Below, one piece after another: positions 22,487 to 55,703 of a DNA stretch of 64,000 nt. Under the pieces are notes generated by a model, which was not told where the DNA came from, did not search any database, and worked only from the letters and a program-made list of their open reading frames with translations. The DNA is from Anadara kagoshimensis (lineage: Eukaryota > Mollusca > Bivalvia > Arcoida > Arcidae). The stretch spans positions 4,187,001-4,251,000 of the forward strand of contig CM037869.1 in assembly GCA_021292105.1 (NCBI GenBank). Direction: 5' to 3'. A program made the position numbers and the translations under genes. The stretch's first letter is position 1, and the number at the start of each line of letters is the position of its first letter.

Positions 22487-22558
22487 TACGCCGTCTTTTG
22501 TATTGTTTCTACTTGTTTTTGCTCACTTATTGTATACCTGGTCTGTCGCAACAGTTAA

Positions 22559-29248: not shown

Positions 29249-29389
29249 GTAATTATTTTTGTTTTAAGCTTACAAATTACAATCTGTAACACATTGTTAG
29301 TTTCATCTTCCTATAAAATATTTTAAGTACCGAACAATAAATATTAACGACAATCATATACATTGACACAAACGTTTTCACTGATGATA

Positions 29390-29643
29390 TAAGCCAACAA
29401 CATTGACCTGTCCCCTTAACGTTTCATTTGGAGTATTCAAATGTAAGGAATTCTCAATTAATACATAGACAGGGTATAGACTTACATTTTTACTTATTGT
29501 CTTATATCCTCGAGCATTGACTCTACACTGATTGAAATCCGTGTTCCTCAATGATGCAGACAAATCAAACACTTATTTACAAAATAATCGGTTCATGATA
29601 AATATTAAAGGTCAAGCGGACAGGTCATTTTAGTTTTCCTATA
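29390..29643. mobile_element. MITE family A, copy A5
   Basis: The left end AAGCCAACAACATTGACCTG followed by TCCCCTTAACG and the right end AAAGGTCAAGCGGACAGGTC followed by ATTTTAGTTTTCCTATA are inverted counterparts. The interior includes AATTCTCAATTAATACATAG, as in A1. Confidence 0.75.
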
Positions 29644-30315: not shown

Positions 30316-30316
30316 G

Positions 30317-30758
30317 GTATAGGGAAACATAAATGATCTGTCCGCTTGATCTTTTATTGGGAACATTCATGTAGACGATCCACCTAATACATGGGTAGTG
30401 TTAGGATACCAAGTTGATACTTACATAATGCATATATCTACACATGTATAGCACCTAACTTTACGTTGATTGTTTCTCTCCTGTCTAAAGAATTTGGCCA
30501 TTGACTCTATTATACTAATACTGTGAAATTATCAATTTTCGAAATGTCCAAATTCACGTTGTTTTTGTGGATTCCCTGGCCCACTAATTAAGATGTCAAC
30601 GAAATATTATATGTTACAAACTTGTTACATAAAGAGAAATCAGAAACCACAAATTTACGTCCCTTCAAAATTGTATTCTTCTTAGAGCCACAACAATGGA
30701 CATCACTAAAATAAAGGATTTTAAATTTAAAGTCGAGAACAATGTTATTTGCCTATAC
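30317..30758. mobile_element. MITE family A, copy A6 (long form)
   Basis: The left end GTATAGGGAAACATAAATGA followed by TCTGTCCGCTTGATC and the right end TTTAAAGTCGAGAACAATGT followed by TATTTGCCTATAC are inverted counterparts. At about 440 bp it is twice the length of A4, with extra interior sequence. Confidence 0.68.
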
Positions 30759-31060: not shown

Positions 31061-31142
31061 GTTTTTGTTGAAGAAAAAAGAAAAAGGAAGTATTTATTAA
31101 AGAACACGATTGCCACGAAGTAGACAAAATAAACATCTATGT

Positions 31143-31201
31143 TCATTATACATAAATGTTCTGGTCAATAATAAATATTTACCTTATAGGTCAAGCACAC
31201 A
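31143..31201 (+). repeat. MITE family A right end at the origin of the satellite
   Basis: AAATGTTCTGGTCAATAATA followed by AATATTTACCTTATAGGTCA aligns with the subterminal region of A4 (ATGTACTGGTTCTAAACAAA, TATTTAAATTATAGGTCA) and of A1. It runs without a break into the first 49-bp monomer. This is the direct junction between a MITE end and the satellite. Confidence 0.72.
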
Positions 31202-31512
31202 GGTCAATGTTGTTTGTCCATAACAAGGTACCTTATAGGTCAAGCACACAAGTCAATGTTGTTTGTCCATAACAAGGTACCTTATAGGTCAAGCACACAA
31301 GTCAATGTTGTTTGTCCATAACAAGGTACCTTATAGGTCAAGCACACAAGTCAATGTTGTTTGTCTATAACAAGGTACATTATAGGTCAAGCACACGGGT
31401 CAATGTTGTTTGTCTATAACAAGGTACCTTATAGGTCAAGCACACAAGTCAATGTTGTTTGTCCATAACAAGGTACCTTATAGGTCAAGCACACAAGTCA
31501 ATGTTGTTTGTC
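31180..31512. repeat. 49-bp satellite, left block, about seven copies
   Basis: The monomer is TATAGGTCAAGCACACAGGT, then CAATGTTGTTTGTCCATAAC, then AAGGTACCT. Landmarks at 31,203 and 31,252 give the 49-bp period. Copies are almost identical. Each has a GGTACC hexamer. The block is cut at its right by E3. Confidence 0.97.
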
Positions 31513-31515
31513 TAT

Positions 31516-31735
31516 CACAAGACCAACTCCCTCCTTTAAGGGTCTTTAAGGAATCCTTAAAGATCCTTAAAGATGTCCTTAAAGATCCTTAGAGCCTCCT
31601 TAAAGACCCTTTTAAGGACCACCATCTTCTTTAAGGATCTTTAAGGCTTCCTTACAGATCCTTAATGGAACTGAAATTTTAAGGATCTTTAATGCGGCTT
31701 AAGGATCTTTAAGGATCACCCTGACATACACATGT
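31516..31735 (+). repeat. E3 left terminal inverted repeat with TTTAAGGATC units
   Basis: Nested runs of TCCTTAAAGATCCTTAAAGA and their complements. The segment TTAATGGAACTGAAATTTTA with flanking units is an exact inverted match to TAAAATTTCAGTTCCATTAA in the right arm. The single strand could fold into many alternative hairpins. Confidence 0.88.
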
Positions 31736-31793
31736 ATTTAAATGATAGAACGGTGTTTTTTCAACCACCCTGAATTGGCTAAGGATGCACCAT

Positions 31794-31846
<53 letters not shown>

Positions 31847-31878
31847 ATAAATTTATTTATTTATTTATTTATTTATTT

Positions 31879-31910
<32 letters not shown>

Positions 31911-31911
31911 G
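31794..31911. repeat. (TTTA)n microsatellite
   Basis: About 28 tetranucleotide units with two short interruptions. Confidence 0.95.
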
Positions 31912-31996
31912 GTATATATTACACAAAAATAATTGGAGAAAAACGCGATTAAAAATAAATGTCCGGTGATAAAATTTCATGATTGTTTTCAAAGTA

Positions 31997-32045
31997 ATTA
32001 ATTAATTAATTAATTAATTAATTCATTAATTAATTAATTAATTTT
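31997..32045. repeat. (TTAA)n microsatellite
   Basis: About 12 units of TTAA/AATT with one substitution. A (TTTA)n run follows at 32,110-32,148. Confidence 0.93.
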
Positions 32046-32110
32046 TATTTATAATCTATACTGCTCCGAGTATTATGTCCCAGCTCTAAATTGATTCAAT
32101 GTACAACTTC

Positions 32111-32145
<35 letters not shown>

Positions 32146-32457
32146 TTAAACTAAAAAAGTGTAGTTTTGACTATTTATCATTATGGATTTATGCCCATAG
32201 GTAATATACAGATCATGCTTCCTAATTGATGATCATCAACATTTTCCCGGTAACACATCAACAACTTACATAACAGAAGCAAATTCAAACTCATTTTAAC
32301 CAGACGATAGTATATTCTACCTGAAAAATTTACTGTATGTTGTTAATCTCTTTAATTACCTAGATGGATTTGAATTTTAATGGAATCTGATGATTAATTT
32401 ACATGAGTAGTAATGTTAGGGATACTTTAGATACTTTTTACCCAATTGTTATTTGTG

Positions 32458-32506
32458 TGTAAATAAATAAATAAATAAACAAATAAATAAATAAATAAAT
32501 AAATAT
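32458..32506. repeat. (AAAT)n microsatellite
   Basis: About 12 AAAT units; an (AG)n run follows at 32,539-32,554. Confidence 0.93.
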
Positions 32507-32639
32507 TTTTAAAAAAGTTAATAAGTATATGAAATATGAGAGAGAGAGAGAGAGGGGGCAGAGCGAAGACTTGTACATCATCGGTTTTTAAACTACCATT
32601 ATTTGATATTTCTTATTTCATGACCTTGAAATGTACATT

Positions 32640-32876
32640 CATATAAATAAATAAATAAATAAATAAATAATCAAATAAATAAATAATCAAATAAATAAAT
32701 AAATAAAACAAATAATCAAATAAATAAATAAATAAATAAATTATCATATAAATTAATAAATAAATAATCAAATGAATATATACATAATCATATAAATAAA
32801 TAAATAAATAAATAATCAAATAAATAAATAAACAATCATATAAAATAAATAAATAAATAAATAAATAAATAAACCA
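32640..32876. repeat. Compound (AAAT)n / AATAATCA repeat
   Basis: AAAT units are interrupted regularly by AATCAAAT or AATCATAT. An open minus-strand frame of 149 codons across it (32,613-33,062) encodes only low-complexity Tyr/Leu/Ile text and poly(SL) from the adjoining AG tract, so it is not a gene. Confidence 0.93.
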
Positions 32877-32984
32877 CAATTTCATAGACAAAACTGGTAG
32901 ATTCATTTGCACTATCTTCTTTATGTAATAATTTCTCGATCGATCCAGTAAAATAACTTGTATTCTCTGATCAAGTTGTTTATG

Positions 32985-32987
<3 letters not shown>

Positions 32988-33021
<34 letters not shown>
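32988..33021. repeat. (AG)n microsatellite
   Basis: An uninterrupted AG run of about 17 repeats. Confidence 0.95.
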
Positions 33022-33024
<3 letters not shown>

Positions 33025-33061
33025 CGGAGCTGAGAGTTGTCTATCGGAACTTTTCCCCACA

Positions 33062-34308
33062 AGCGAAAACTATAAGCATGATTTTCTAATCATAGAATAG
33101 GTCCGCAATCCAAGTTAACGAATTTCGGGCTAATAAAGTTGTGATTTATAATGAAACAATTAAAAGAAAAAAAATTTGTTTATAGCATCGGCATTTATTA
33201 TTGTTTTTATTTGTTTTCTTGCCGAAAATGGGGTTCTCTGTGTGTTTCCGTTTCATCCACAATCCTGGAACTGACGACCGCCACAACATAACTAGCAAAA
33301 TCTTGATCTCACTGCCTTGGTTCACATCTTTAGGGAAAATCTAGTGTGAGAAAACTAGCTTGTCGAATATTTGTTCTAATCTCAATGCACTTTGATTTCC
33401 TTCACTATCCTTGAACTTAAAGTCTCTACACAAGACTATACAATTTTGTTACAAACTGACAAAATATTAAACTGGGACAGGCCATAATCTCAGAAAATTT
33501 GTCAGTTCGCTCAGGTTTTACATTCTTGGCCATTCTAGAATTCTTATTCATTGAATCAAATAATGATATAAGTGAAATAATCTTGACACAGGAATGAAAC
33601 TCTATACTCTGCTATCCCGTTATCCTGATTATGTTGAGAAAAAAGTAAAAAAGTTTTCTCCAGAAATAAATCAAATGGTGTTGTTCAAACACAAAAAGAT
33701 ATTAGCAGTCTGCAGCTGACGTTGGAATATTGTCATATCTAGGAGAGAAAGAGAGAGAGAGGAGAGAGAATTTGGATTTGCAGTGTCGTGTACTTTTTCC
33801 GTTCTGTTTAAAAATAATTCAAAAATGGTAAATCATGCAGTGTCAGATCCAGCGGGATGGAGGCAGGTGGGCGGGGAGGGGGGCACCCCAACATTTGTCC
33901 CTGCTTTCCGACTTTTTTCCCTCTTGCTTACCGCAAATTGTCAAGCAAACAGTGGATGGACCAGTTAATTAGTGGTACTGATTAATTAATTCGTGTACAG
34001 GTAGGTAATTACAATCAGGTGATGATGTAATGTACCAGTTCGCTGAGGTATGAAAGAATTCAGGTAGTGCTGACCAGTCTTAGGTGATAATGTTATTTAC
34101 ATGATCACTTAGGCATGAAAGAACCCAGTTAGTATTAGTAAATGACGTTAATTAGTAATACTAATTAAGACACTTCTGTCTTGTCAGAAAGCATGAATTT
34201 TAAACAGGGTTGTTATAAGTACTTCAAAAATAATTCTTATTCAAGGACAGATTCCATAAAGAGTGATTCCATTAATCATAAATGAATATTGGGACCAAGG
34301 GTCAGGGC

Positions 34309-34312
<4 letters not shown>
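33062..34312. other. E3 interior, no gene recognised
   Basis: Unassigned AT-rich sequence with a short (AG)n near 33,745. A motif pair around 34,040-34,075 and 34,097-34,135 (GAGGTATGAAAGAATTCAG and TAGGCATGAAAGAACCCAG) is a small local duplication. No transposase relic was seen. Confidence 0.45.

Positions 34313-34356
<44 letters not shown>
34313..34356. repeat. (AG)n microsatellite
   Basis: An AG run of about 20 repeats. Confidence 0.95.
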
Positions 34357-34360
<4 letters not shown>

Positions 34361-34364
34361 CTAA

Positions 34365-34570
34365 TTAGAATGGTACATTTTTAGCACATAAGATTATCTT
34401 TTATAGCGCAAGGTTCTATTTTCATATAAAAGTCCCAACTTTTGTACATTTTTTGTACATTTTTATTTTTTATTTTTAATTGGTTTTAATAGATAAATTC
34501 CATCTCATTTGACTTTTTATTCTATCCGTCCGTTATTGGCTTTATGGAACAAATCTAAAATGATAAGTGC
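34365..34570. repeat. Dispersed repeat family D, copy 1
   Basis: GGTACATTTTTAGCACATAA, GCGCAAGGTT, AAAGTCCCAACTTTTG, AATTCCATCTCATTTGACTT and ATCCGTCCGTTATTGGCTTT match 57,710-57,930 in order. The type is unknown. Confidence 0.65.
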
Positions 34571-34749
34571 TATTTTCTGGTGAAAAGGATACTTGTGTGT
34601 TGCACTATTATACTGATTATTTAGTGTAATAATGTAATAATTTAATTAATATAATAAAATTAACTTGAATGTTCAGATAGATGTCATATAGATAACTTTA
34701 AACAAGTGTGGAAAAAAGGGGAGGAAGGCCCCTGAGACCTTCCACTTCG

Positions 34750-34872
34750 GTAGCAGCCAGCTCGGTAGAGTGTCGACTGTCCGCTCCAGAAGTGGAAGGT
34801 CGCGGGTTTGGTCTCTGGCCGGGTCTGATCTAAAACTTGAAAAAGGGTAGTGACTATTCACTCGGATCCGCT
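34750..34872 (+). mobile_element. tRNA-derived SINE, 5' fragment
   Basis: AGCTCGGTAGAGTG is a good A box. The B-box region CGCGGGTTTGGTCTC is degraded. GGCCGGGTCTGATCTAAAAC and GGGTAGTGACTATTCACTCG match the head/body junction of the SINE at 14,535. The 3' part is missing. Confidence 0.75.
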
Positions 34873-35000
34873 TTTGAGTATGACAATGGTAATATTTTTT
34901 TAAACAGTTTTACCAGATTTATAACAGCAGGAAATGTCGCTAGTTCTACTGTTTCAATTTGTAAAGAGTACTATTATTATAATGTTTAACATGTGCACCC

Positions 35001-35002
<2 letters not shown>

Positions 35003-35055
<53 letters not shown>
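35003..35055. repeat. (TC)n microsatellite
   Basis: An uninterrupted TC run of about 25 repeats. A short (AAT)n lies at 35,567-35,590. Confidence 0.95.
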
Positions 35056-35056
<1 letters not shown>

Positions 35057-35720
35057 GTGAATTGAATTAATTTCTGAAATTATTTTATTTAACATTCTCA
35101 CTGTTTCCCTCATAAAACAGTCATTTAAGTTAAATGCGAGATTTTGAAGGATAGATTAAGATTATAACAAATTATCATTAAAACTCGTCTTCCATTTTGT
35201 ACATATTATTAAATGTCGCTGGTACAATATTATAGTTGTTTATCAAACAAGGAAATAAGTATTGGTATTACAACAAAAATGTAACTAAATTATAAAAGAC
35301 AATTTTAAATAAAATTTACTTAAAATTATTGTTTTAATTTCAAGAATTATTGAAATATTTTATTAAAAAAGCAGTAGTATGATTAAGATTATACAAATAG
35401 GAATGATATCTGATCGATAATTGATCTTTATAAAAGTGATGTTTGCCAGTCAGATAAATAAGTGTATTACAGGTAAAGGTTTGATATGCCCGTCTTCCTT
35501 TGATCAGAAATCTTAAGTCAGTTAAATTAACCTAAAAATTATTCCTCTCAAGAATGAAAGAGCAAAATAATAATAATAATAATAATAATAAAATATTTTT
35601 AAATGGAGTAAAACATTTTATTTATATATTTTATTATTAAATCTGAAAGATTTAGAGCTAGTCACGTGATCCTTAGGCTACCGGGTACTGATATAGTTTA
35701 AAAATATAAAATATATTCAT

Positions 35721-35815
35721 GTCTTCCGTGGCCTAATGGATAAGGATGTAGAGTCAGGAAAGGATGTAATCTGGGGAACTAAGGGTAGTGAGTTCAAGTC
35801 CCGCTGCGAGCGAAA
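35721..35815 (+). pseudogene. tRNA-Arg-like pseudogene or SINE head
   Basis: TGGCCTAATGGATAAGG at 35,729-35,745 is an A box typical of tRNA-Arg. AGTTCAAGTCC at 35,791-35,801 is a good B box. The distance between them is roughly 20 nt longer than in a functional tRNA without an intron, with GGAAAGGATGTAATCTGGGG in the middle, and no balanced acceptor stem is evident. It is a tRNA-derived relic, not a working tRNA gene. Confidence 0.6.
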
Positions 35816-36127
35816 TTAGATAAGTAAATTTGTAATAAATGATGTTAAATAATGTGTTCTTCTTTATTTGTGATTTCAGGACTACTTGCAAAACAACCAA
35901 AATTAGTATAAATTGATAAAGAAAAATGATTAAATAAATAATTTATTTTTTATAAATTTACAAATTTTATAAATAAAAAAAAAAAAAATAATTTTTTTAA
36001 ATAAAACAATAAAATAAAATAAAAACAGTGTAAGAGTATAATAAGTTATAATAATTATATTTAACATCACATTTATATAAATTTAAAATTTAAAAAAATG
36101 TAAAGAAATTTGTTTTCTGTGTTTATT

Positions 36128-36328
36128 AAACGAATCCTTAAAGATCCTTAAAGCCGCCTTAAAGATCCTTAAAATTTCAGTTCCATTAAGGATCTTTAAG
36201 GATGTCCTTAAAGAGACCTTAAAGACACATTTAAGGTCCTTAAAGACCCCTTAAAGATCCTTAAAGCCCCATTTAATGAGTCTTTAAGGGGGCTTTAAGG
36301 ATCCTTAAAGGTGACTTTTCTTCTTGTG
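36128..36328 (-). repeat. E3 right terminal inverted repeat
   Basis: The inverted counterpart of 31,516-31,735, with the same CCTTAAAGATCC units and the perfect palindrome CTTTAAGGATCCTTAAAG region, ending ...CTTCTTGTG. Confidence 0.88.
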
Positions 36329-36331
36329 TAT

Positions 36332-39300
36332 AACAAGGTACATTATAGGCCAAGCACACAAGTCAATGTTGTTTGTCCATAACAAGGTACCTTATAGGTC
36401 AAGCACACAAGTCAATGTTGTATGTCCATTACAAGGTACCTAATAGGTCAAGCACACGGGTCAATGTTGTTTGTCCATAACAAGGTACCTTTTTAAGTCA
36501 AGAACACGGGTCAATGTTGTTTGTCCATAACAAGGTACCTTATAGGTCAAGCACACAGGTCAATGTTGTTTGTCCATAACAAGGTACCTTATAGGTCAAG
36601 CACACAGGTCAATGTTTTTTGTCCATAACAAGGTACCTTATAAGTAAAGCACACAAGTCAATGTTGTTTGTCCATAACAAGGTACCTTATAGGTCAAGCA
36701 CACAAGTCAATGTTGTTTGTCCATAACAAGGTACCTTATAGGTCAAGCACACAGGTCAATGTTGTTTGTCCATAATAAGGTACCTAATAGGTCAAGCACA
36801 CAAGTCAATGTTGTCAAGCACACAGGTCAATGTTGTTTGTCCATAACAAGGTACCTAATAGGTCAAGCAAATGTCATGTTGTTTGTCCATAACAAGGTAC
36901 TTATAGTCAAGCACACAGGTCAATTGTTTGTCCATAAACGGTACCTTATAGGTCAAGCACACAGGTCAATGTTGTTTGTCCATAACACAGTACCTAATAG
37001 GTCAAGCACACGGGTCAATAGTGTTTGTCCATAACAAGGTACCTATAGGTCAAGCACACAGGTCAATGTTGTTTGTCCATAACAAGGTACCTATAGGTCA
37101 AGCACAGGTCAATGTTGTTTGTCCATAACAAGGTACCTTATAGGTCAAGCACACAGGTCAATGTTGTTTGTCCAATAACAAGGTACCTTATAGGTCAAGC
37201 ACACAGGTCAATGTTGTTTGTCCATAACAAGGTACCTTATAGTCAAGCACAAGTCAATGTTGTTTGTCCATAACAAGGTACCTTATAGGTCAAGCACACA
37301 AGTCAATGTTGTTTGTCCATAACAAGTACCTTAGTCAAGCACACAAGTCAATGTTGTTTGTCCATACAAGGTACCTTATAGGTGAACCACACAAGTCAAT
37401 GTTGTTTGTCCATAACAAGTACCTTATAGGCCAAGCACACAAGTCAATGTTGTTTGTCTATAACAAGGTACCTTATAGGTCAAGCACACAAGTCAATGTT
37501 GTTTGTCCATAACAAAGTACCTTATAGGTCAAGCACACAGGTCAATGTTGTTTGTCCATAACAAGGTACCTTATAGGTCAAGCACACGAGTCAGAGTTGT
37601 TTGTCCATAACACGGTACCTAATAGGCCAAGCACACGGGTCAATGTTGTTTGTCCATAACAAGGTACGTTATAAGTCAAGCACACAAGTCAATGTTATTT
37701 GTCTATAACAAGGTACCTTATAGGCCAAGCACACAGGTCAATGTTGTTTGTCCATAACAAGGTGCCTTATAGGTGAATCACACAAGTCAATGTTGTTTGT
37801 CTATAACAAGGTACCTTATAGGTCAAGCACACAAGTCAATGTTGTTTGTCCATAACAATTACCTTATAGGTCAAGCACACAGGTCAATGTTGTTTGTCCA
37901 TAACAAGGTACCTTATAGGTCAAGCACACAAGTCAATGTTGTTTGTCCATAACAAGGTACCTTATAGGTCAAGCACACGAGTCAATGTTGTTTGTCCATA
38001 ACAAGGTACCTTATAGGTCAAGCACACAAGTCAATGTTGTTTGTCCATAACAAGGTACCTTATAGGTCAAGCACACAAGTCAATGTTGTTTGTCCATAAC
38101 AAGGTACCTTATAGGTCAAGCACACAAGTCAATGTTGTTTGTCCATAACAAGGTACCTTATAGGCCAAGCACACAGTCAATGTTGTTTGTCCATAAAAGG
38201 TACCTTATAGGTCAAGCACACAATCATGTTGTTTGTCCATAAACAAGGTACCTTATAGGTCAAGCACAAGTCAATGTTGTTTGTCCATAACAAGGTACCT
38301 TATAGGTCAAGCACACAAGTCAATGTGGTTTGTCCATAACAAGGTACCTTATAGGTCAAGCACACAGGTCAATGTTGTTGTCCATAAAAGGTACCTTATA
38401 GGTCAAGCACACAGGTCAATGTTGTTTGTCCATAACAAAGTACCTTATAGGTCAGGCACACAGGTCAATGTTGTTTGTCCATAAAAGGTACCTTATAGGT
38501 CAAACACAGGTCAATGTTGTTTGTCCATAACAAGGTACCTTATAGGTCAGGCACACAGGTCAATGTTGTTTGATCATAAAAGGACCTTATAGGTCAGGCA
38601 CACAGGTCAATGTTGTTTGTCCATAACAAGGTACCTTATAGGTAAGCACACAGGTCAATGTTGTTTGATCATAAAAGGTACCTTATAGGTCAGCACACAG
38701 GTCAATGTTGTTTGTCCATAACAAGGTACTTATAGGTCAGCACACAGGTCAATGTTGTTTGATCATAAAAAGGTACCTTATAGGTCAGGCACACAGGTCA
38801 ATGTTGTTTGTCCATAACAAGGTACATTATAGGTCAAGCACACAGGTCAATGTTGTTTGTCCATAACAAGGTACCTTATAGGTCAGGCACACAGGTCAAT
38901 GTTGTTTGCATACAAGGTACCTTATAGGTCAGGCACACAGGTCAATGTTGTTTGTCCATAACAAGGTACCTTATAGGTCAGCACCAGGTCAATGTTGTTT
39001 GTCCATAACAAGGTACCTTATAGGTCAGGCACACAGGTCAATGTTGTTTGTCCATAACAAGGTACCTTATAGGTCAGGCACACAGGTCAATGTTGTTTGT
39101 CCATAACAAGGTACCTTATAGGTCAGGCACACAGGTCAATGTTGTTTGTCCATAACAAGGTACCTTATAGGTCAGGCACACAGGTCAATGTTGTTTGTCC
39201 ATAGCAAGGTACTTATAGGTCAGGCACACAGGTCAATGTTGTTTGTCCATAACAAGGTACTTATAGGTCAAGCACACAGGTCAATGTTGTTTGTCCATAA

Positions 39301-42300
39301 CAAGGTACATTATAGGTCAAGCACACAGGTCAATGTTGTTTGTCCATAACAAGGTACTTATAGGTCAAGCACACAGTCAATGTTGTTTGTCCATAACAAG
39401 GTACCTTATAGGTCAAGCACACAGGTCAATGTTGTTTGTCCATAACAAGGTACCTTATAGGTCAAGGCACACAGGTCAATGTTGTTTGTCCATAACAAGG
39501 TACTTATAGGTCAGGCACACAGGTCAATGTTGTTTGTCCATACAAGGTATTATAGGTCAGGCACACAGGTCAATGTTGTTTGTCCATAAAAGGTACATTA
39601 TAGGTCAGGCACACAGGTCAATGTTGTTTGTCCATAACAAGGTACCTTATAGGTCAGGCACACAGGTCAATGTTGTTTGTCATAACAAGGTACATTATAG
39701 GTCAGGCACACAGGTCAATGTTGTTTGTCCATAACAAGGTACCTTATAGGTCAGGCACACAGGTCAATGTTGTTTGTCCATAACAAGGTACCTTATAGGT
39801 CAGGCACACAGGTCAATGTTTGTTTGTCCATAAAAAGGTACCTTATAGGTCAAGCACACAGGTCAATGTTGTTTGTCCATAACAAGGTACCTTATAGGTC
39901 AGGCACACAGGTCAATGTTGTTGTCCATAACAAAGGTACCTTATAGGTCAAGCACACAAGTCAATGTGTTTGTCCATAACAAGGTACCTATAGGTCAAGC
40001 ACACAGGTCAATGTTGTTTGTCCATAACAAGGTACCTTATAGGTCAAGCACACAGGTCAATGTTGTTTGTCATAAAAGGTACCTTATAGGTCAAGCACAC
40101 AGTCATGTTGTTTGTCCATAACAAAGTACCTTATAGTCAAGCACACAGGTCAATGTTGTTTGTCCATAACAAGGTACCTTATAGGTCAAGCACACAGGTC
40201 AATGTTGTTTGTCCATAACAAAGTACCTTATAGGTCAAGCACACAGGTCAATGTTGTTTGTCCATAACAAGGTACCTTATAGGTCAAGCACACAGGTCAA
40301 TGTTGTTTGTCCATAACAAGGTACCTTATAAGGTCAAGCACACAGGTCAATGTTGTTTGTCCATAACAAGGTACCTTATAGGTCAAGCACACAGGTCAAT
40401 GTTGTTTGTCCATAACAAGGTACCTTATAGGTCAAGCACACAGGTCAATGTTGTTTGTCCAAACAAGGTTACCTTATAGGTCAAGCACACAGGTCAATGT
40501 TGTTTGTCCATAACAAGGTACCTTATAGGTCAAGCACACAAGGTCAATGTTGTTTGTCCATAACAAGGTACCTTATAGGTCAAGCACACAGGTCAATGTT
40601 GTTTGTCCATAAAAGGTACCTTATAGGTCAAGCACACAGTCAATGTTGTTTGTCCATAACAAGGTACCTTATAGGTCAAGCACACAGGTCAATGTTGTTT
40701 GTCCATAACAAGGTACCTTATAGGTCAGGCACACAGGTCAATGTTGTTTGTCCATAACAAGGTACCTTATAGGTCAAGCACACAAGTCAATGTTGTTTGT
40801 CCATAACAAGGTAGTTATAGGTCAAGCACACAAGTCAATGTTGTTTGTCCATAACAAGTACGTTATAGGTCAGCACACAGGACAATGTTGTTTGTCCTAA
40901 CAAGGTACCTTATAGGTCAGCACACAAGTCAATGTTGTTTGTCCATAACAAGGTACGTTATAGGTCAGCACACAGGTCAATGTTGTTTGTCCATAACAAG
41001 GTACCTTATAGGTCAAGCACAAGGTCAATGTTGTTTGTCCATAACAAGGTACCTTATAGGTCAAGCACACAAGGTCAATGTTGTTTGTCCATAACAAGGT
41101 ACCTTATAGGTCAAGCACACAGGTCAATGTTGTTTGTCCATAACAAGGTACCTTATAGGTCAAGCACACAAGTCAATGTTGTTTGTCCATAACAAGGTAC
41201 CTTATAGGCCAAGCACACAGGTCAATGTTGTTTGATCATAAAAAGGTACCTTATAGGTCAAGCACACAAGTCAATGTTGTTTGTCCATAACAAGGTACCT
41301 TATAGGTCAAGCACACAGGTCAATGTTGTTTGATCATAAAAAGGTACCTTATAGGTCAAGCACACAAGTCAATGTTGTTTGTCCATAACAAAGTACCTTA
41401 TAGGTCAAGCACACAGGTCAATGTTGTTTGTCCATAACAAGGTACCTTATAGGTCAAGCACACAGGTCAATGTGTTTGTCCATAACAAGGTACCTTATAG
41501 GTCAAGCACACAGGTCAATGTTGTTTGTCCATAACAAGGTACCTTATAGGTCAAGCACACAGGTCAATGTTGTTTGTCCATAACAAGGTACCTTATAAGT
41601 CAAGCACACAGGTCAATGTTGTTTGTCCATAACAAGGTACCTTATAGGTCAAGCACACAGGTCAATGTTGTTTGTCCATAACAAAGGTACCTTATAGGTC
41701 AAGCACACAGGTCAATGTTGTTTGTCCATAACAAGGTACCTTATAAGTCAAGCACACAGGTCAATTGTTGTCCATAACAAGGTACCTTATAGGTCAAGCA
41801 CACAGGTCATGTTGTTTGTCATAAAAAGGTACCTTAAGGTCAAGCACACAGGTCAATGTTGTTTGTCCATAACAAGGTACCTTATAAGTCAAGCACACAG
41901 GTCAATGTTGTTTGTCCATAACAAGGTACCTTATAGGTCAAGCACACAGGTCAATGTTGTTTGATCATAAAAAGGTACCTTAAAGTCAAGCACACAGGTC
42001 AATGTTGTTTGTCCATAACAAGGTACCTTAAAGGTCAAGCACACAGGTCAATGTTGTTTGTCCATAACAAGGTACGTTATAAGTCAAGCACATAGGTCAA
42101 TGTTGTTTGATCATAAAAAGGTACCTTATAGGTCAGGCACACAGGTCAATGTTGTTTGATCATAAAAAGGTACCTTATAGGTCAGGCACACAGGTCAATG
42201 TTGTTTGTCATAACAAGGTACTTATAGGTCAAGCACACAGGTCAATGTTGTTTGTCCATAAAAGGTACCTTATAGGTCAAGCACACAGGTCAATGTTGTT

Positions 42301-45300: not shown

Positions 45301-46520
45301 GTCAATGTTGTTTGTCCATAAAAAGGTACCATATAGGTCAGGCACACAGGTCAATGTTGTTTGTCCATAACAAGGTACCTTATAGGTCAAGCACACAAGT
45401 CAATGTTGTTTGTCCATAACAAGGTACATTATAGGTCAGGCACACAGGTCAATGTTGTTTGTCCATAACAAGGTACATTATAGGTCAAGCACACAGGTCA
45501 ATGTTGTTTGTCCATAACAAGGTACCTTATAGGTCAGGCACACAGGTCAATGTTGTTTGTCCATAACAAGGTACCTTATAGGTCAAGCACACAGGTCAAT
45601 GTTGTTTGTCTATAACAAGGTACCTTATAGGTCAGCACACAGGTCAATGTTGTTTGTCCATAGCAAGGTACCTTATAGGTCAGGCACACAGGTCAATGTT
45701 GTTTGTCCATAACAAGGTACCTTATAGGTCAAGCACACAGGTCAATGTTGTTTGTCCATAACAAGGTACCTTATAGGTCAGGCACACAGGTGAATGTTGT
45801 TTGTCCATAACAAGGTACCTTATAGGTCAGGCACACAGGTCAATGTTGTTTGTCCATAACAAGGTACCTTATAGGTCAAGCACACAGGTCAATGTTGTTT
45901 GTCTATAACAAGGTACCTTATAGGTCAAGCACACAGGTCAATGTTGTTTGTCCATAGCAAGGTACCTTATAGGTCAGGCACACAGGTCAATGTTGTTTGT
46001 CCATAACAAGGTACCTTATAGGTCAAGCACACAGGTCAATGTTGTTTGTCCATAAAAAGGTACCATATAGGTCAAGCACACGGGTCAATGTTTTTTGTCC
46101 ATAACAAGGTACCTTATAGGTCAAGCACACAGGTCAATGTTGTTTGTCCATAGCAAGGTACCTTATAGGTCAGGCACACAGGTCAATGTTGTTTGTCCAT
46201 AACAAGGTACCTTATAGGTCAGGCACACAGGTGAATGTTGTTTGTCCATAGCAAGGTACCTTATAGGTCAAGCACACAGGTCAATGTTGTTTGTCCATGA
46301 CAAGGTACCTTATAGGTCAGGCACACAGGTGAATGTTGTTTGTCCATAACAAGGTACGTTATAAGTCAAGCACATAGGTCAAACACACAGGACAATGTTG
46401 TTTGTCCATAACAAGGTACCTTATAGGCCAAGCACATAGGTCAAACACACAGGACAATGTTGTTTGTCCATAACAAGGTACCTTATAGGCCAAGCACATA
46501 GGTCAAACACACAGGACAAT
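36332..46520. repeat. 49-bp satellite, main block, about 210 copies
   Basis: A continuous head-to-tail array of the monomer described for the left block. Sub-domains share variants: CAAGCACACAAGTCAA dominates 36.3-38.3 kb; CAGGCACACAGGTCAA dominates 38.4-39.8, 42.1-43.5 and much of 44.2-46.3 kb; TTGATCATAAAAAGG clusters at 38.5-38.8 and 41.2-42.4 kb; TCCATAGCAAGG clusters at 44.2-46.3 kb. At 46,340-46,520 a longer variant adds CATAGGTCAAACACACAGGA. Many 1-2 bp deletions occur at 37-44 kb and few after 44.7 kb. All open frames here are repeats of the monomer. No unique spacers are present. Confidence 0.97.
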
Positions 46521-47402
46521 TAGCCCAAGAGCTAGTGGGGTTTGAAATATGTGTCAATGGCCAAAAGCTTTGAAGTTGTTTCTGATAGAAAATGTCTGTA
46601 GTTTTCGAATTTGGGCGTCTTGTGAATGAACTCGTTTCCGATTTTTTTCAGACGCGAGTTTTTACACTAGAATCGCATTTTTCAGCGGTTTTTCGGTAAT
46701 TTGATAATTCTGCATTATGGACGCGATATGGCCTTAAAATGTCTTATTACTGATGCGGTATCAAGAATTATGATCATTTTGACATTTAAGTTAAAAACTT
46801 CTTGATACATTTCAGATTTTTTTTTAAAATAACTATTTAGGAAAAAAATAGACCAAAAATTTTGCGTTTTTAATATTTTGCCCTCTTTTATGTCTTATAA
46901 AAAAATAATAAAAGCATTTAAGTGAAATGTTTTACCATATTGTCACAGCCTAATGTGTGTTTTGCATTCAATAAAAGTAGCTGCATATCATTTGGTAGGA
47001 AATTGCGGCACCCACAGTGGAAAAACTTTCCCCTACCCCAAAAAATTGCAAATTTCTCAAAAAATCGATCTTTACTACAAATTTTGCTATTAGTTGCCAT
47101 ACTGATTGTTATACCGTGTAAGCTTTAATACTTGGGTGACAACATTGAAGACCTCTAACTAAAAACTTCTTGTTAAGCATTCAATCTCAATTTTGTGGCC
47201 AATTTAAACAACCGAGTTTTGCGTTTTTACTTAATCTTTATTCGTTAAAGTCTTGTAGCGCATTCAAAAAAAGCCTGATTATCAATATACTATTTTATTT
47301 AGAATCCCTGATGTGTTGCTTTATTGTGCAAGTATAATGTGTAACAAAATCGTCACATTAACCCATTACCACGATTTATTCTTCCCCTACCCCAATATGC
47401 TA
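46521..47402 (+). repeat. E2 left terminal inverted repeat
   Basis: The arm contains TTCCCCTACCCCA near 47,029 and 47,385, 355 bp apart, the same motif and spacing as in E1. It ends just outside the coding relic's stop codon at 47,492. Confidence 0.9.
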
Positions 47403-47491
47403 ACGATATGCGAATTCACGGATATACTGTGTTAGTGCTCTTAGACAGGCTGGTTCAAAATAACTCGTATTCATTCAGAATTATAATTTCT

Positions 47492-48857
47492 TCATCTCAG
47501 TGTCTTCACTATCATACTGTCGGATTCACGTACATCCTCATCTTCTCCCATGTCATCCTCTGTAAAAGTTGTACTGTCCATCTTCAGTCTTATATCTTTC
47601 GGAATCTGTTCACCTTCAAACCAGTGAATCGCATACTTGTTATTTCTTTTTTCCATCCATTTTCTTGTGGAGTATTTAATGTAGGACAACTGCAATTGGC
47701 ATGTTTCCAAAAATATGCAACATATTCTGTTCGGAGGATTTTCTGAACAAGAACACTTTTACAAGGAGGTAGTGAACTCGGATCGGCTCCTTTGAGCTTT
47801 TCTAATGGGTCAGTTTGATTGTTGGAGCGTATTTCTCTCTGAAAATGGCAAATCGTGCTCATTACTGTTTTAATGTTTTTTTTGCCATACATTTCACAGA
47901 CAAAAGATTCCATTACCTTCATATCTCTTTCATTAACTCTTGATTTGTTCCAATATTTGAGAAAACGCTTCTGAAGTTGCACTTTTTTCAACGATATTAT
48001 AAGGCCTAATTTTACCTTTTCTAAGAATGCTGCAGTATAATCACATCCAGTGAAAGCATGGATAGCTGGAAGAACTTGGCACATTTCGATCCCAATTTCA
48101 TTGGACAGTTTTGTTAGATCAATAAATCGCCTAGTATTGGTGCCGTCAGTGCCTGAATCCATCCATATGTTTGCATGTATTTGGTGACAATGATACAATA
48201 AAATAACCATTACATCCGTGTCATTTGCTCTAACCACTACGGTTAGGAGAATCGGACCTTGAGGCAATGTATTGCACATGTAAGGTGATCCTGGTATCTG
48301 CCTCCTCGTGGGTACAGGCAAGATTGGACACTTCACTGCACACTACTGTTGCATCATTTTCGCAATAGAATTGATGGCAGTGGTCCTCTGTTGCATAATA
48401 TAATGTATGGCCTGCAAGAATGTCAGCATAGTTATCATTCTTCCATCTTGTAGCAAAAACGATAGTAATGACCTCTTGAAATTAGCAGATTTCAAAGCTG
48501 AACGGAAATCATGAGGTCGCTTGTGTTTTGGGCCCATTACTACAATATCTGGTCCACTGCTCTCTCCTCGCATATCTCTTTCAATATCTTTGATGGATGG
48601 ATGGAATATGTGTCACAAACAAAGTGTATTTCTTTTGCCAGTTTACATAATAGCTTGAGAATGGTTTTGGCTACACCTTCAAAAGTATCTGGTAGGTTTG
48701 ACAGCAACTGTATAAGGAACATGGCATCAACGACATAAGCATCAATTTGATTTGCAGCTGGAGGATCAGAATGAGCCTTGCTCTCTAACATTTTCATAAG
48801 TATTGATTTGTCGGTTTTATTCATATTCCCGTCAATTTGTGCAAGAGCTGGCGGCAC
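47492..48857 (-). other. XPG/FEN1-like (PIN-type) nuclease domain of the E2 relic
   Basis: Four acidic clusters appear in the order expected of FEN1-type nucleases: VVDAMF (Asp codon 48,726-48,728), HEEADTR (near 48,310), NDTDV (first Asp codon 48,220-48,222) and TGCDYT (48,031-48,048, like the GCDY of the FEN1 helix-turn-helix region). GPKHKRPHDF near 48.53 kb lies between the first two. The domain is followed by YAIHWFEGEQIPKDI and an acidic tail (EDDMGEDEDV) before the stop. Each motif is visible directly; the fold and metal-binding role are inferred from the FEN1 comparison. Confidence 0.65.
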
Positions 48858-51800
48858 GGGAGTGAGAGGATATTCAAAACTTTCTGCAAGTTTATATCTG
48901 TTGTCGTTGCCAAAAACAAAAGCCTACCAAATAGATCACGTGAACCTGTAGCTGTATGATTTTCTTTGCTTTCACCTCAACCCGAACCTTAAGTGCCAAA
49001 GATGCAAAAGTGCGCAATTGTTTCTTGTAAAGGTTTTTCAAATCTAGAGGGATCTGCAAAACACCATTTCTAAAGTCGTGAAAAGATTGCTCGCCATATT
49101 TTACCACAACTAAGTATCTCATTTTTCACATCATCTTTGACTCTGTTACCAGTTGATATGCACAGGAGATCCTCATTTCTTATCTCTGTATCAAACGGAT
49201 TCTTAGTTGCTTTAATACAGTCGATCAAACTAATTACATCTTTATTATCTCTCTGAATTCGCGACGGCTTGAGCTCTTGATTCACCCCCTTTTTCCGGAT
49301 TCCAGTTTTTGAGAGAAGAGCACCAACGATAGCACTGCGGACACTTCGTGTAATCATCCATCTTCGCCTGGCCGTATATGACTGGCTGAATGCAGAAATG
49401 CCAGTTAGACGAGATGCAGCATCAGCATTGATGTCTGCTCAAGTGTCATGTCCACTGGAATTCTGGAAAATGATTTATTCGAGCGTCTTATAGACAAACC
49501 ACCATTCTCAAGCATTGCTCTTGCTTGTGGATGACTTATATCAATGTTAAGTAAATTTAAGTGATAGCGTGTCATCCATCTTGCATAGTTTGGTCTATTA
49601 GCTGCAAAAAATACTGGACACATTTTTCCTAAGCAGTAAGTAAATAAAGGTAGATCGTTAGTTCGACAAGATCTACTGAAAAGTAACAGAAGTTCAACTA
49701 ATTCAATATACATAAACCAATACTGTGCTGTTGATCCATGGTTTCCAGTTCTTGTGTCATTGGAAAAGGCTTCATACATATCAAAAATAGATTTTAAATT
49801 TTCTTGCTCTAGAACGTTTTGCATTTCTTCTGAAGAAGTATTGTAATGAATTGTTCTAAACTGCTCGTAAAAGATTCAGATATCTGACCATGCTCTTCCA
49901 GAAAAGACCGAAAATGGAGAATACGGAAAGAAAGAGATAATATAGTATGCATTCTCTGACATCTGTTATAATGCTTCCCTTTTATGAACCCATTTAGAGA
50001 CCCATTCTGCCAGAACTTTGGTCTCGGTTAGCACATATGGTCCGCCAGAGCCCTCAATTAAGTGACCAAGAGCGCCAAAATATGCCAACATTATATGGAA
50101 AGGACCAAAACATATGAAAATATTGTCGTACTTTGGTGATTCTTCCGATTGTATCTGCATCGCTGGTTTAGCTATGGCAAGATCATAGTGGACAATTGCT
50201 GTGTTATCAGAACATTCCCGTGCCACAATCTGCGATCGACCGTAATGTTTCCGACACCACATCTAATCGGGTCGGTGGCAAACTTATATTGTCCATATAG
50301 CCTATCACTTGCTCTGGTAGATGATCTACTGTGATTAGAGAATTCCATCCTGACACATGGGTATATTAGAAAATAAATGGTGACAAATCACCATGTTAAA
50401 TCCCTTTTTCTGGTCTCATTTAAATTAGAGGGTCCGAAATTGCTTTTACGGGATATTGAAATTTTGTTATTTTTGGACGCTTTCTGTAAGATTCTAAAAT
50501 AGGTCCTCAATAATCTAAAGAGCGTTTACGTTTCAATGACTTTGTTTGTGTAGTGGATACTTGTGGAATTCCTAGAGAGTCCCCATTGAATGTTGTTCGT
50601 CGGGAGTGTTCTGGTAACATATTCCAACTGTGTCGTGCAAAGTTCCGCTTCCAGACAAAGTCCGGTGTTTTCATCATAATTATCCCAAGCCGTTCCGGTT
50701 GACAAGTTTGGAATTTTCAGTAATCCATCAGGAGTTAGCTGATTCCTGTCTGATATTGTCATTGCAAGTTCAGTTTCAAGTGTCTCCGCAACATGGTAAC
50801 TTATTGAGTGCCCTAAATGATTTAGTACTTCAATAATTTTCCTACTACCAGTCATACTTTTTAAAACCCAGTCCAAGACATAAATGTTTTGATGGCTTTA
50901 TTTCGCCATGGTTACAGCAAACAAAGCAATCTGCTGCTGAACTGATGCATCTATCATTCTTCAGAAGGTTCTTTTGTTGAAGACCCTGTATATAGAGTTT
51001 TAAAAAAACTTAAGTATGTCTGGGGGGTTAGCTTGGCCTTTCTGTATTTCATTTACAGTCAATGGGTTCTGTAATTGGGGACATGTCTTTGACATTTCTA
51101 ATATTGTATTTCGCAACTGGTATGCAGCTTCAGTGACTTTGGAATTTAATAAAAACGTATTATGGAAACCTATAATCTGATCTGTATCTAGAAAGCTTGG
51201 ATATAATATTTTGCCTGTCGTTTACCTATTTTACTCATGCAAATATCATCTTTGAAGTGATTTAGAAGTTTTACTTCTAAAGTCTCTGGATGGTATATGA
51301 GGAGCAATCAAGACCAATGTCCATCAGCATTGTAGTGTAATATTCATACAAGGAGGCAATTGTTACAGCTTGACCTTGTGCTATAACGTTTTTATTTATG
51401 TATTCGGTCAACCATTTAAATGCTTTTTCGTGTCTAGCCTAATGTTGCCATATTCTGTCTTAGCAGACCCGGGTATACACCTCTCAGAAAGATTTAAGTA
51501 ATGTTTTCGGCAGCTATGGTGATTTAACCTCTTTAGCAACAAAATCTATATCACAAACTCTGGCAATCATATCTGTATCACCCAGAACCATTGCAGCATT
51601 TTTTATTTTTTCTCCCGCTTCCAAACTTTCACAATTGCCTAACTGTTCCCTTTTCTTACCCTTCGTCAGGAGGCCACAAAAACAAACATACGGGAAGAAA
51701 AATACCGGAGGAGGAAGTTTCGTCCGATAAATGTTCAGTGTGGGATCTTAAAGTGTAAGAAACTCTTTTCTTTCTACAGTGGAAAAAGACTCTAGTTCTT

Positions 51801-52091
51801 TTTTTGAGACAGCAGTGAAGTTCTTGTAACACATTCTGTGATAACCATTGGTTTTAGGATCAAAGTTTGAGGAAGATCTTGACAAATTTGTTTATATTTG
51901 TGGGATTTTGTTTTCGAAGACGATATCAGCAACTTTTGCCACTTTACTCCATGTTGTTTCATCAAAAGGTTAATTTCTATATCTTGGAAACGTTTATCGA
52001 CATGAAGGCAACAAACAAGATTTGTTTCATCTGTGCTATCGCCCTGTAATATCTGTTTCCCCTTAGATGTATCCAGCCGTGTGCTGGCCAT
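47492..52091 (-). pseudogene. Academ-like transposase with XPG-type nuclease, frameshifted
   Basis: The conceptual protein runs from Met at 52,091 to the stop at 47,492 and would be about 1,500 residues. It is broken into pieces in different frames: 51,792-52,091, 50,526-50,876, 49,966-50,262, 49,405-49,824, 49,070-49,357, 48,892-49,122, 48,540-48,857, 48,343-48,573, 47,590-48,336 and 47,492-47,710. These pieces keep the order of a widespread animal transposon protein: an N-terminal stretch with Cys/His (CYKNF-like) residues; the GPFHIMLAYFGALGHLIEGS block near 50.1 kb; WMTRYHLNLLNIDISHPQAR then VDMTLEQT near 49.5 kb; RDNKDV near 49.25 kb; and the nuclease. Frame changes near 48,590, 48,450 and 48,240 and at the 47.7-kb join are visible by reading adjacent frames. 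Transposase function is inferred from the element context. It is not functional as assembled. Confidence 0.8.
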
Positions 52092-52639
52092 GTTGCAACA
52101 CTTCTAATGAAATGACAATGAGTTATCACAAACAAATCGCAAAATATTATTACAGTGATTTTAATTCAGTCACGGAATCAATAGAATTAACAAACAGATT
52201 ACTTATCTGCGTCAAAACTTCATTGATTCTATTGTGAACACGGATTCTTTTTAAAAACAAATATTAAATAAAATCAACTTGTTCACACGAAATATAAACG
52301 GTAACAAAACAATAGAAAAAAGGGGTGAATAGTTTTTTCTTACTTATCATAAACAACAACCATATGAAAGTATCTATAATTGCAACCACGTGTGATTTGC
52401 AATGACAGAAACGTAACACAAACGCTTTGCGCAGCGCCATCTGCCGAGTCATACAAAAGGGCGTGGCACTATCATGCTTAATAATACAAAAAATCAAAGC
52501 ATTGAATAAACAAGCTAACAGCGTAATTTACTATATGTTTCAAGTACAAATTTACGTTATAACACTCTACCGTGTTTAAAATCTCACTGCCTGAGAACGC
52601 ACAAGTGTAAAATCAATATCTCGCGAACTCGCTTATTTA
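52092..52639. other. E2 5' noncoding interior
   Basis: This lies between the presumed start codon (minus strand, 52,091) and the right arm. It is the likely place for the element's promoter and 5' leader, but I see no clear TATA or initiator to call. Confidence 0.4.
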
Positions 52640-53521
52640 TTGCATATGGGTAGGGGGAAGAATAAATTGTGGTGAAAGGGTTGTGTGACGATTGTGTTAT
52701 ACATTATACTTGCACAATAAAGCACAAACATCAGGGATTCTAAATAAAATAGTATATTGATAATCAGGCTTTTTTGAATGCGCTACAAGACTTTAACGAA
52801 TAAAGATAAGTAAAAACGCAAAACTCGGTGTTTAAAATTGGCCACAAAATTGAGATTGAATGCTTAACAAGAAGTTTTTTAGTTAGAGGTCTTCAATGTT
52901 GTCACCCAAGTATTAAAGCTTACACGGATATAACAATCAGTATGGCAACTAATAGCAAAATTTGTAGTAAAGATCGATTTTTTGAGAAATTTGCAATTTT
53001 TGGGGTAGGGGAAAGTTTTTCCACTGTGGGTGCCGCAATCCTACCAAATGATATGCAGCTACTTTTATTGAATGCAAAACACATTAGGCTGTGACAATAT
53101 GGTAAAACATTTCACTTAAATGCTTTATTATTTTTTATAAGACATAAAAGAGGGCAAAATATTAAAAACGCAAAATTTTGGTCTATTTTTTTTCCTAAAA
53201 TAGTTATTTAAAAAAAAATCTGAAATGTATCAAGAAGTTTTTAACTTAAATGTCAACAATGATCATAATTCTTGATAACCGCATCAGTAATAAGACATTT
53301 TAAGGCCATATCGCGTCCATAATGCAGAATTATCAAATTACCGAAAAACCGGCTGAAAAATGCGATTCTAGTGTAAAAACTCGCGTCTGAAAAAAAATCG
53401 GAAACGAGTTCATTCACAAGACGCCCAAATTCGAAAACTACAGACATTTTTCTATCAGAAACAACCTTCAAAGCTTTTGGCCATTGACACATATTTCAAA
53501 AACCCACTAGCTCTTGGGCTA
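52640..53521 (-). repeat. E2 right terminal inverted repeat
   Basis: The inverted counterpart of 46,521-47,402. GGGGTAGGGGAAAG near 53,002 and GGGTAGGGGGAAGAATAAAT near 52,650 are the inverted subterminal motifs. Small indels separate the arms. Confidence 0.9.
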
Positions 53522-54703
53522 AATGTTGTTGCATAACAAGGTACCTTATAGGCCAAGCACATAGGTCAAGCACACAGGGACAATGTTGTTTGTCCATAAC
53601 AAGGTACCTTATAGGTCAAGCGCACAGGTCAATGTTGTTTGTCCATAACAAGGTACCTTATAGGTGAAGCACACAGGTCAATATTGTTTGTCCATAACAA
53701 GGTACGTTTATGAAGCACAGGTCAAACACACAGGACAATGTTGTTTGTCCATAACAAGGTACCTTATAGGCCAAGCACATAGGTCAATGTTGTTTGTCCA
53801 TAACAAGGTACCTTATAGGTCAAGCACACAGGTCAATGTTGTTTGTCCATAACAAGGTACATTATAGGTCAAGCACACAGGTCAATATGGTTGTCCATGA
53901 CAAGGTACCTATAGGTCAAGCACACAGGTGAATGTTGTTTGTCCATAACAAGGTACCTTATAGGTCAAGCGCACAGGTCAATGTTGTTTGTCCATAACAA
54001 GGTACCTTATAGGTCAAGCACACAGGTCAATATTGTTTGTCCATGACAAGGTACCTTATAGGTCAAGCACACAGGAATGTTGTTTGTCCATAACAAGGTA
54101 CCTTATAGGTCAAGCACACAGGTCAATGTTGTTTGTCATAACAAGGTACCTTATAGGTCAAGCACACAGGTCAATGTTGTTTGTCCATAACAAGGTACCT
54201 TATAGGTCAAGCACACAGGTCAATGTTGTTTGTCCATAACAAGGTACATTATAGGTCAAGCACACAGGTCAATGTTGTTTGTCCATAACAAGGTACTTAT
54301 AGGTCAAGCACACAGGTCAATGTTGTTTGTCCATAACAAGGTACATTATAGGTCAAGCACACAGGTCAATGGTTTGTCCATAACAAGGTACATTATAGGT
54401 CAAGCACACAGGTCAATGTGTTTGTCCATACAAGGTACCTTATAGGTCAAGCACACAGGTCAATGTTGTTTGTCCATAACAAGGTACCTTATAGGTCAAG
54501 CACACAGGTCAATGTTGTTTGTCCATAACAAGGTACATTAAAGGTCAAGCACACAGGTCAATGTTGTTTGTCCATAACAAGGTACATTATAGGTCAAGCA
54601 CACAGGTCAATGTTGTTTGTCCATAACAAGGTACATTATAGGTCAAGCACAGGTCAAAAAATGTTGTTGTTTGTCCATAACAAGGTCCATTATAGGTCAA
54701 GCA
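53522..54703. repeat. 49-bp satellite, right block, about 24 copies, running into the gap
   Basis: The same monomer and phase as before E2, starting in the long CATAGGTCAAGCACACAGGG variant also seen at 46,340-46,520. This confirms that E2 split one array. The block ends at the N run, so its true length is unknown. Confidence 0.97.
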
Positions 54704-55703
54704 NNNNNNNNNNNNNNNNNNNNNNNNNNNNNNNNNNNNNNNNNNNNNNNNNNNNNNNNNNNNNNNNNNNNNNNNNNNNNNNNNNNNNNNNNNNNNNNNN
54801 NNNNNNNNNNNNNNNNNNNNNNNNNNNNNNNNNNNNNNNNNNNNNNNNNNNNNNNNNNNNNNNNNNNNNNNNNNNNNNNNNNNNNNNNNNNNNNNNNNNN
54901 NNNNNNNNNNNNNNNNNNNNNNNNNNNNNNNNNNNNNNNNNNNNNNNNNNNNNNNNNNNNNNNNNNNNNNNNNNNNNNNNNNNNNNNNNNNNNNNNNNNN
55001 NNNNNNNNNNNNNNNNNNNNNNNNNNNNNNNNNNNNNNNNNNNNNNNNNNNNNNNNNNNNNNNNNNNNNNNNNNNNNNNNNNNNNNNNNNNNNNNNNNNN
55101 NNNNNNNNNNNNNNNNNNNNNNNNNNNNNNNNNNNNNNNNNNNNNNNNNNNNNNNNNNNNNNNNNNNNNNNNNNNNNNNNNNNNNNNNNNNNNNNNNNNN
55201 NNNNNNNNNNNNNNNNNNNNNNNNNNNNNNNNNNNNNNNNNNNNNNNNNNNNNNNNNNNNNNNNNNNNNNNNNNNNNNNNNNNNNNNNNNNNNNNNNNNN
55301 NNNNNNNNNNNNNNNNNNNNNNNNNNNNNNNNNNNNNNNNNNNNNNNNNNNNNNNNNNNNNNNNNNNNNNNNNNNNNNNNNNNNNNNNNNNNNNNNNNNN
55401 NNNNNNNNNNNNNNNNNNNNNNNNNNNNNNNNNNNNNNNNNNNNNNNNNNNNNNNNNNNNNNNNNNNNNNNNNNNNNNNNNNNNNNNNNNNNNNNNNNNN
55501 NNNNNNNNNNNNNNNNNNNNNNNNNNNNNNNNNNNNNNNNNNNNNNNNNNNNNNNNNNNNNNNNNNNNNNNNNNNNNNNNNNNNNNNNNNNNNNNNNNNN
55601 NNNNNNNNNNNNNNNNNNNNNNNNNNNNNNNNNNNNNNNNNNNNNNNNNNNNNNNNNNNNNNNNNNNNNNNNNNNNNNNNNNNNNNNNNNNNNNNNNNNN
55701 NNN
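54704..55703. other. Assembly gap of exactly 1,000 N
   Basis: The round length suggests a placeholder. Any open frame crossing it is meaningless. Because satellite enters on the left and different sequence leaves on the right, the gap probably hides more satellite. Confidence 0.98.

Follow-up and report, generated by a model that had tools for sequence, protein, structure and literature searches.

The window analysed here is a 64,000-bp stretch of the Anadara kagoshimensis genome (C13:4,187,001-4,251,000, contig CM037869.1; genome of 1.115 Gb in 36 contigs), which contains a 49-bp satellite, several copies of a MITE that we call family A, and a second family, B, having its own inverted ends within the window (Table 1). 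The three segments detected by TRF are one satellite cut by two insertions, and our own monomer splitting resolves the array into 238 units of about 11.7 kb in total. The interval given in the initial annotation, 31,143-54,703, is satellite only in part, since the two insertions interrupt it; the N gap directly beyond it hides the right end of the array.

Table 1. Features of the family-A and satellite locus, in window coordinates.
Feature	Position	Strand	Basis
Family-A MITE, full-length type, 72-75% (range with 22556..22761)	7048..7262	+	consensus alignment
Family-A MITE, 3' half	16401..16507	+	consensus alignment
Possible decayed pair: two degenerate family-A ends, same orientation, spaced ~97 bp	18246..18402	+	first by BLAST, second by eye
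Family-A MITE, full-length type, 72-75% (range with 7048..7262)	22556..22761	+	consensus alignment
Family-A MITE with both ends, two pieces (29,388-29,442 and 29,536-29,643)	29388..29643	+	BLAST
Family-A MITE, 5' half	30318..30433	+	consensus alignment
Family-A MITE 3' half (consensus 106-232), end = first satellite unit	31098..31222	+	consensus alignment; same junction in L009
49-bp satellite, segment 1 (7 units)	31180..31521	+	TRF and monomer splitting
Insertion of ~4.8 kb splitting the array	31522..36329		inverted ends 31533-31716 / 36134-36311 (78%); borders approximate
49-bp satellite, segment 2	36330..46520	+	TRF (three rows merged); monomer consensus identical to that of L009
Insertion of ~7.0 kb	46526..53516		~0.9-kb inverted ends (95%); monomer resumes on far side
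49-bp satellite, segment 3, running into assembly gap	53517..54703	+	TRF (53,561-54,703) and monomer resumption
Assembly gap (N), right end of array hidden	54704..55703		N run

The inverted ends of the 4.8-kb insertion are TCCTTAAAGG-rich, and several TTAT/TAAA microsatellites lie within it. The monomer broken by the 7.0-kb insertion continues past the far border of that element, whose ORFs are broken and which by eye has a 3-bp AAT direct repeat on both sides; a Pfam scan of four of its 22 listed ORFs gave sub-threshold matches only (DUF6589, E 0.0036, and RE_CfrBI, E 0.03). Elsewhere in the window, positions 24,235-29,020 hold a 1.27-kb inverted repeat, foldback-type by appearance, with arms that are 98% identical and lie ~2.3 kb apart.

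Searching the genome with the element-array junction as query gave 60 matches, with 39 of the 617 candidates scored, and 37 regions were fetched. Thirty-three loci of single-copy type (L013-L045) were picked by their end, the lower-numbered loci being arrays and left out, and 20 copies chosen among the 33 gave a 232-bp family-A consensus whose inverted ends measure ~40 bp. In these loci the MITE end lies in mostly unrelated flanks, with L013/L014, L024/L025 and L029/L043 as paralogous pairs. A nested copy at locus L077 has a 2-bp TA target duplication, visible as two extra bases compared with the uninserted consensus, and L035, though its alignment is less clear, likewise has two additional bases near that position. 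Judged by its 232-bp length and ~40-bp inverted ends, family A has the build of a MITE (short, presumably non-coding, with inverted ends); it also carries the TA duplication that marks MITEs of the Tc1/mariner type, to which we take it to belong, the superfamily being read from the TA target site alone. A Helitron or Helentron origin is ruled out by the TA duplication and the inverted ends. Nor does family A fit the foldback (Tetris-like) class, having ends of ~40 bp and, in most fetched array loci, an array on one side; at L090, arrays flank a MITE cluster on both sides, with differing units. The family-A insertions of L035 and L077 both appear to have hit the same TA (ACAC-TA-CCC) within a second family-A copy, a hint of internal target preference.

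Outside the masked arrays, ten sites of the window reached scores of 14-21 with a 38-bp end probe, as against 13 at most in one first-order Markov shuffle (46 kb). The single copies reported by the initial annotation near 7,264, 16,513, 22,757 and 29,643 were recovered, while the one at 30,758 corresponds to a weak match only (30,720-30,757, E 0.012). At 18,245-18,402, which had been put forward as a possible intermediate with tandem termini, two degenerate ends can be read by eye, of which BLAST finds the first only.

The 49-bp unit comprises the outer ~39 bp of the family-A 3' end and ~10 bp of non-element sequence; it adds ACAAGGTACC to the element end, and the filler ACAAGG is absent from the family-A consensus. 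As first described, MITE sequence runs into the first monomer without a break, with consensus positions 106-232 aligned at 31,098-31,222, but the element at the join is a 3' half rather than a whole copy. The same join is present 1.18 Mb from the window array, on the other strand, at locus L009 (C13:5.39-5.40 Mb), where it leads into 28 units. The monomer consensus of the 238 window units is identical to that of the 28, and monomers differ pairwise by 4.2% on average in the window, by 5.5% in L009 and by 5.3% when the two arrays are compared. Viewing the two arrays as simple alleles is unsupported, a ~1.7-kb neighbour of the window array (29,020-30,710) being inverted and placed on the other side of the L009 array.

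The exact 14-bp core of the family-A end, GTCAATGTTGTTTG, occurs 12,224 times genome-wide (reversed control 38), and 855 direct pairs of this core are spaced at 39-69 bp (reversed control 0). Among the matches listed (the first 100 of the 855, reaching C3), these pairs represent 14 loci with 13 unit types. The narrower spacing of 50-60 bp gave 187 direct pairs genome-wide, and among the matches listed (the first 100 of 187, to C11) there are 21 loci on C5-C11, including the previously fetched L011 and L012. Altogether 31 unit types of 32-70 bp, derived from either family-A end, were tabulated from the pair listings together with the window, L010 and L015; merging four similar 54-bp types of the 5' end and two 55-bp types of the 3' end (L010, L088) leaves 27. 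Same-chromosome array pairs were counted once each. Outside this table stand L090 (72 and 85 bp), L091 (95 bp) and L092 (21 bp); the arrays with units of 72, 85 and 95 bp were met in a single-core listing of the first 5.9 Mb of C1, unselected for arrays. Some arrays hold two to four copies (L087, L015, L079, L080, L100, L103), while others are large, such as L086, where ~134 copies of a 32-bp unit reach the edge of the fetched piece. In at least nine loci an otherwise complete element adjoins the end array (L010, L015, L076, L079, L080, L083, L088, L089, L101); at L080 the array borders the 3' end of the element but is built from units of the 5' type.

As in other TE-derived satellites, the unit corresponds by homology to one definite portion of an element that occurs dispersed, and composite loci exist. 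The initial proposal that a MITE end seeded the satellite is supported by the aligned consensus, which carries the monomer-like end, by the 12,224 end cores and by the loci with two to four tandem ends, and the intermediates it had anticipated are seen beside otherwise complete elements at L015, L079 and L080. It envisaged a single event, whereas some 27-31 unit types can be told apart; the unit also includes ~10 bp that do not belong to the element. We conclude that the 49-bp satellite is very probably an amplified 3' end of the MITE, and that such births have occurred many times, from either end of family A. The opposite order, in which the MITE would have acquired its ends from a pre-existing satellite, would also leave ~39 bp common to unit and end, and similarity alone gives no direction. 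We regard it as exceedingly improbable: full elements carry the end as an inverted pair (the fetched DNA has 35 full-length matches, with overlap among some loci), the end also stands in the mostly unrelated flanks of the single-copy loci, the 31 array types share nothing but the end, and the consensus lacks the filler of the 49-bp unit.

Whether the ends are special was judged against the interior of the element. One interior core, CAATACATGGGTAG, has 1,716 single copies genome-wide and a single direct pair; a second, AATAAACACCTGTG, has 10 direct pairs, a raw count not scaled to core number, all at one C17 locus. That locus (C17:6485911-6486463) is a 40-bp array from the family-A interior, and neither of the two interior cores led to any other multi-copy interior array. 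Array loci number 14 per ~2,047 end cores in C1-C3 versus 1 per 1,716 for the interior core genome-wide (Fisher p 0.003), or by estimate ~12-fold more per core at the end; the comparison is rough, the ~2,047 being an estimate that assumes an even spread and the 14 loci being those among the listed matches. Because the pair search was anchored on the end, it is the interior comparison by itself that carries the enrichment, and end-spanning units would be expected even from random duplications. An argument from units straddling the outer edge was accordingly dropped, as a search pattern placed 6 bp from the end will pick up units that span the edge regardless. The comparison supports, without proving, a special role of family-A ends in array birth. 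Should the arrays instead be ordinary minisatellites born by chance, frequent at ends simply because family A is numerous, the 12,224 end cores would provide many chances, interior arrays such as that on C17 would be expected, and units would be short and varied, as in any minisatellite; in human, 7,276 minisatellites are TE-derived, 2,663 of them with Alu, and they come from any TE region, according to figures cited in a review (PMC9659126). This explanation appears rather unlikely in view of the 855 end pairs against one and 10 interior pairs, the estimated ~12-fold excess of loci per core, and the behaviour of family B.

The end core of family B forms 1,257 direct pairs (reversed control 0), again a raw count not scaled to core number, and among the matches listed (the first 100 of 1,257) these fall into 16 loci with about 13 unit types on C2-C7. 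In at least three family-B arrays the bare 40-bp end stands head to tail (C3:7.05, C4:34.3 and C6:16.5 Mb). The family-B pairs weaken the idea of an effect specific to family A. Within the window, amplification of a family-B interior is also seen: 32-bp and 41-bp arrays (18,782-19,675) are enclosed by the two inverted ends of a family-B MITE at 18,682-19,746. A 33-bp GC-rich array (58,364 to the window end) starts ~150 bp inside a family-B element that begins at 58,215.

If an array begins as a duplication straddling the element end, the non-element part of its unit is local flank and must therefore follow the last copy. This was examined in 15 arrays with a filler of at least 4 bp and a visible far end; left out were arrays without filler or with a shorter one, the paralog L082, L086 and L102 (far end unfetched), the L090 arrays and L077 (where host MITE sequence forms the filler). 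In nine arrays (L009, L011, L015, L080, L081, L089, L091, L097, L101) the filler runs on past the final copy of the end (shuffle p ≤ 0.05); in six (L083, L084, L085, L096, L098, L099) it shows no clear continuation. For the 6-bp filler of L015 the flank of another array scored equally high, and the continuation at L009 consists of six matching bases only (p 0.05); the native right flank of the window array is lost in the N gap. By reading, the array stops within ~2 bp of the junction between filler and element in eight of the nine filler-continuing arrays, a stop that is expected there if the filler is native flank. At least eight such stops among 15 arrays have p 0.0002 under a chance of 5/39 per array, a post-hoc figure. 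On this comparison of fillers and flanks, nine of the 15 tested arrays look to have been born in place.

Some arrays may, however, be copies rather than births, if array-bearing elements move as such in the manner of Tetris. Same-unit pairs occur on C3 (8.25/8.57 Mb), C5 (3.2/3.7 and 61.8/62.6 Mb), C6 (62.85/62.87 Mb), C8 (48.1/48.7 Mb) and C11 (34.8/35.7 and 35.1/36.0 Mb), and four look-alike 54-bp arrays, each consisting of nothing but 5' end, lie on different chromosomes. Yet among the matches listed, the same-unit pairs with their own filler lie on one chromosome and within ~1.2 Mb; the sole pair tested, L081/L082 (C3, 8.25/8.57 Mb), has homologous flanks (93.5%), which fits a segmental or haplotypic duplication, and fillers match the local flank in nine of 15 arrays, so that movement of whole arrays is a quite improbable source for many of them. 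The arrays paired on one chromosome (C3, C5, C6, C8, C11 and C13; up to ~1.2 Mb apart) may reflect segmental duplication or haplotypes retained in the assembly.

Tandem arrays expand by unequal exchange. In the origin that we propose, a short tandem duplication straddling the outer end of the MITE would arise in place, and unequal exchange or slippage would then stretch it, in the window to more than 238 units; two other elements would later land in this array, and the 28-unit copy would arise 1.18 Mb away. As the cause of the first duplication we prefer a break, or staggered nicks, at the element end or close to it, that would be filled in and joined, over a hairpin formed at the inverted ends or plain slippage, and we offer this trigger tentatively, as a possibility short of even likelihood. 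In mouse cells, filled-in breaks with staggered ends are reported to yield small tandem duplications, microhomology being chiefly a feature of the alternative pathway (PMC8355091). Breaks of this kind could plausibly fall at a transposon end. By eye, junction microhomology in a few of our arrays amounts to none to few bases.

Two MITEs inserted doubly or one inside the other would likewise bring ends into direct order, from which unequal exchange could build arrays. Such a history seems to lie behind L077, where one family-A copy is nested at a TA of another, the ends of inner and host copy are in direct order, and the 66-bp unit consists of host remnant plus end. The 54-bp unit of L103 is compatible with it by eye, and L077 and L090 contain more than one family-A copy each. 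As a general account this route is unlikely, and taken alone it is already insufficient: the filler is local flank and not MITE in L015, L081, L089, L091 and L101, the consensus does not contain the ACAAGG of the window filler, and the 31 tabulated units, at 32-70 bp, fall far short of the element's length.

The outer ends of MITEs might be general nurseries of satellites in this genome, a view that we hold with more doubt than conviction: edges prone to duplication would have given rise to dozens of independent family-A arrays, and to others in the unrelated family B, some of them reaching kilobases. The fragility of the edge would perhaps come from stalled forks or cuts by transposase. The beginnings of satellites have long been hard to trace, as arrays usually erase their own first steps. 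Family A offers stages of two, few and hundreds of copies, often with the parent element attached and local flank caught in the unit, so that breakpoints can be read directly and models of break repair, slippage and nested insertion can be tested by counting.

Conversion of MITEs to satellites and recurrent TE-derived minisatellites are already known. According to two reviews, consulted in part, nearly any part of a TE can turn tandem, inverted ends included, and MITEs are said to have yielded several different satellites in Messor ants (PMC12628747, PMC9659126); because these reviews report the Messor satellites and the human TE minisatellites, recurrence as such is not new. The new part is the many births at the ends of one element with early stages visible, the trigger being one that we infer. 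Among open-licence papers, surveyed mostly at the level of title and abstract, we found no report of many births in place from the ends of one MITE, which does not imply its absence from print.

The closest likeness is Tetris/TIR-220, a foldback element of Drosophila virilis in which, as described in the parts consulted, part of the inverted end likewise became a satellite, with stages from in-element repeats to long arrays (PMC4079207). There, ~220-bp repeats of one unit type lie inside long ends, whereas family A is a 232-bp MITE with 31 types, most of which reach or pass its outer end. MITE-derived arrays and composite loci of MITE plus array are also summarized for Xenopus Xstir (from the Xmix MITE), miDNA4, a Tc1/mariner-type MITE, and the Messor satellites (PMC12628747, PMC9659126). 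The Xenopus repeats come from inside the MITE according to one of these reviews, while a table in the other gives the TIR for Xstir; those of family A come from the ends. The Xenopus and Messor accounts, as summarized there, describe no birth in place with flank in the unit, and such units are seen in family A. Human TE minisatellites resemble the family-A arrays in comprising very many independent tandem births from one dispersed element class, but arise from any element region in the review's summary (PMC9659126), whereas in family A the ends prevail over both interior cores examined. The route by TE dimers or double insertion (McGurk and Barbash 2018, as outlined in PMC12628747) is matched by L077, with insertion into its own kind and then expansion; it needs two elements, which arrays with local-flank filler do not. 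Among bivalves, the pearl MITEs and the tandem repeats of Helentrons are, in the portions of the sources consulted, likewise non-autonomous elements with satellite-like repeats (PMC7492417, PMC9659126), and the repeats are central in the oyster Helentrons (PMC9659126) but terminal in family A.
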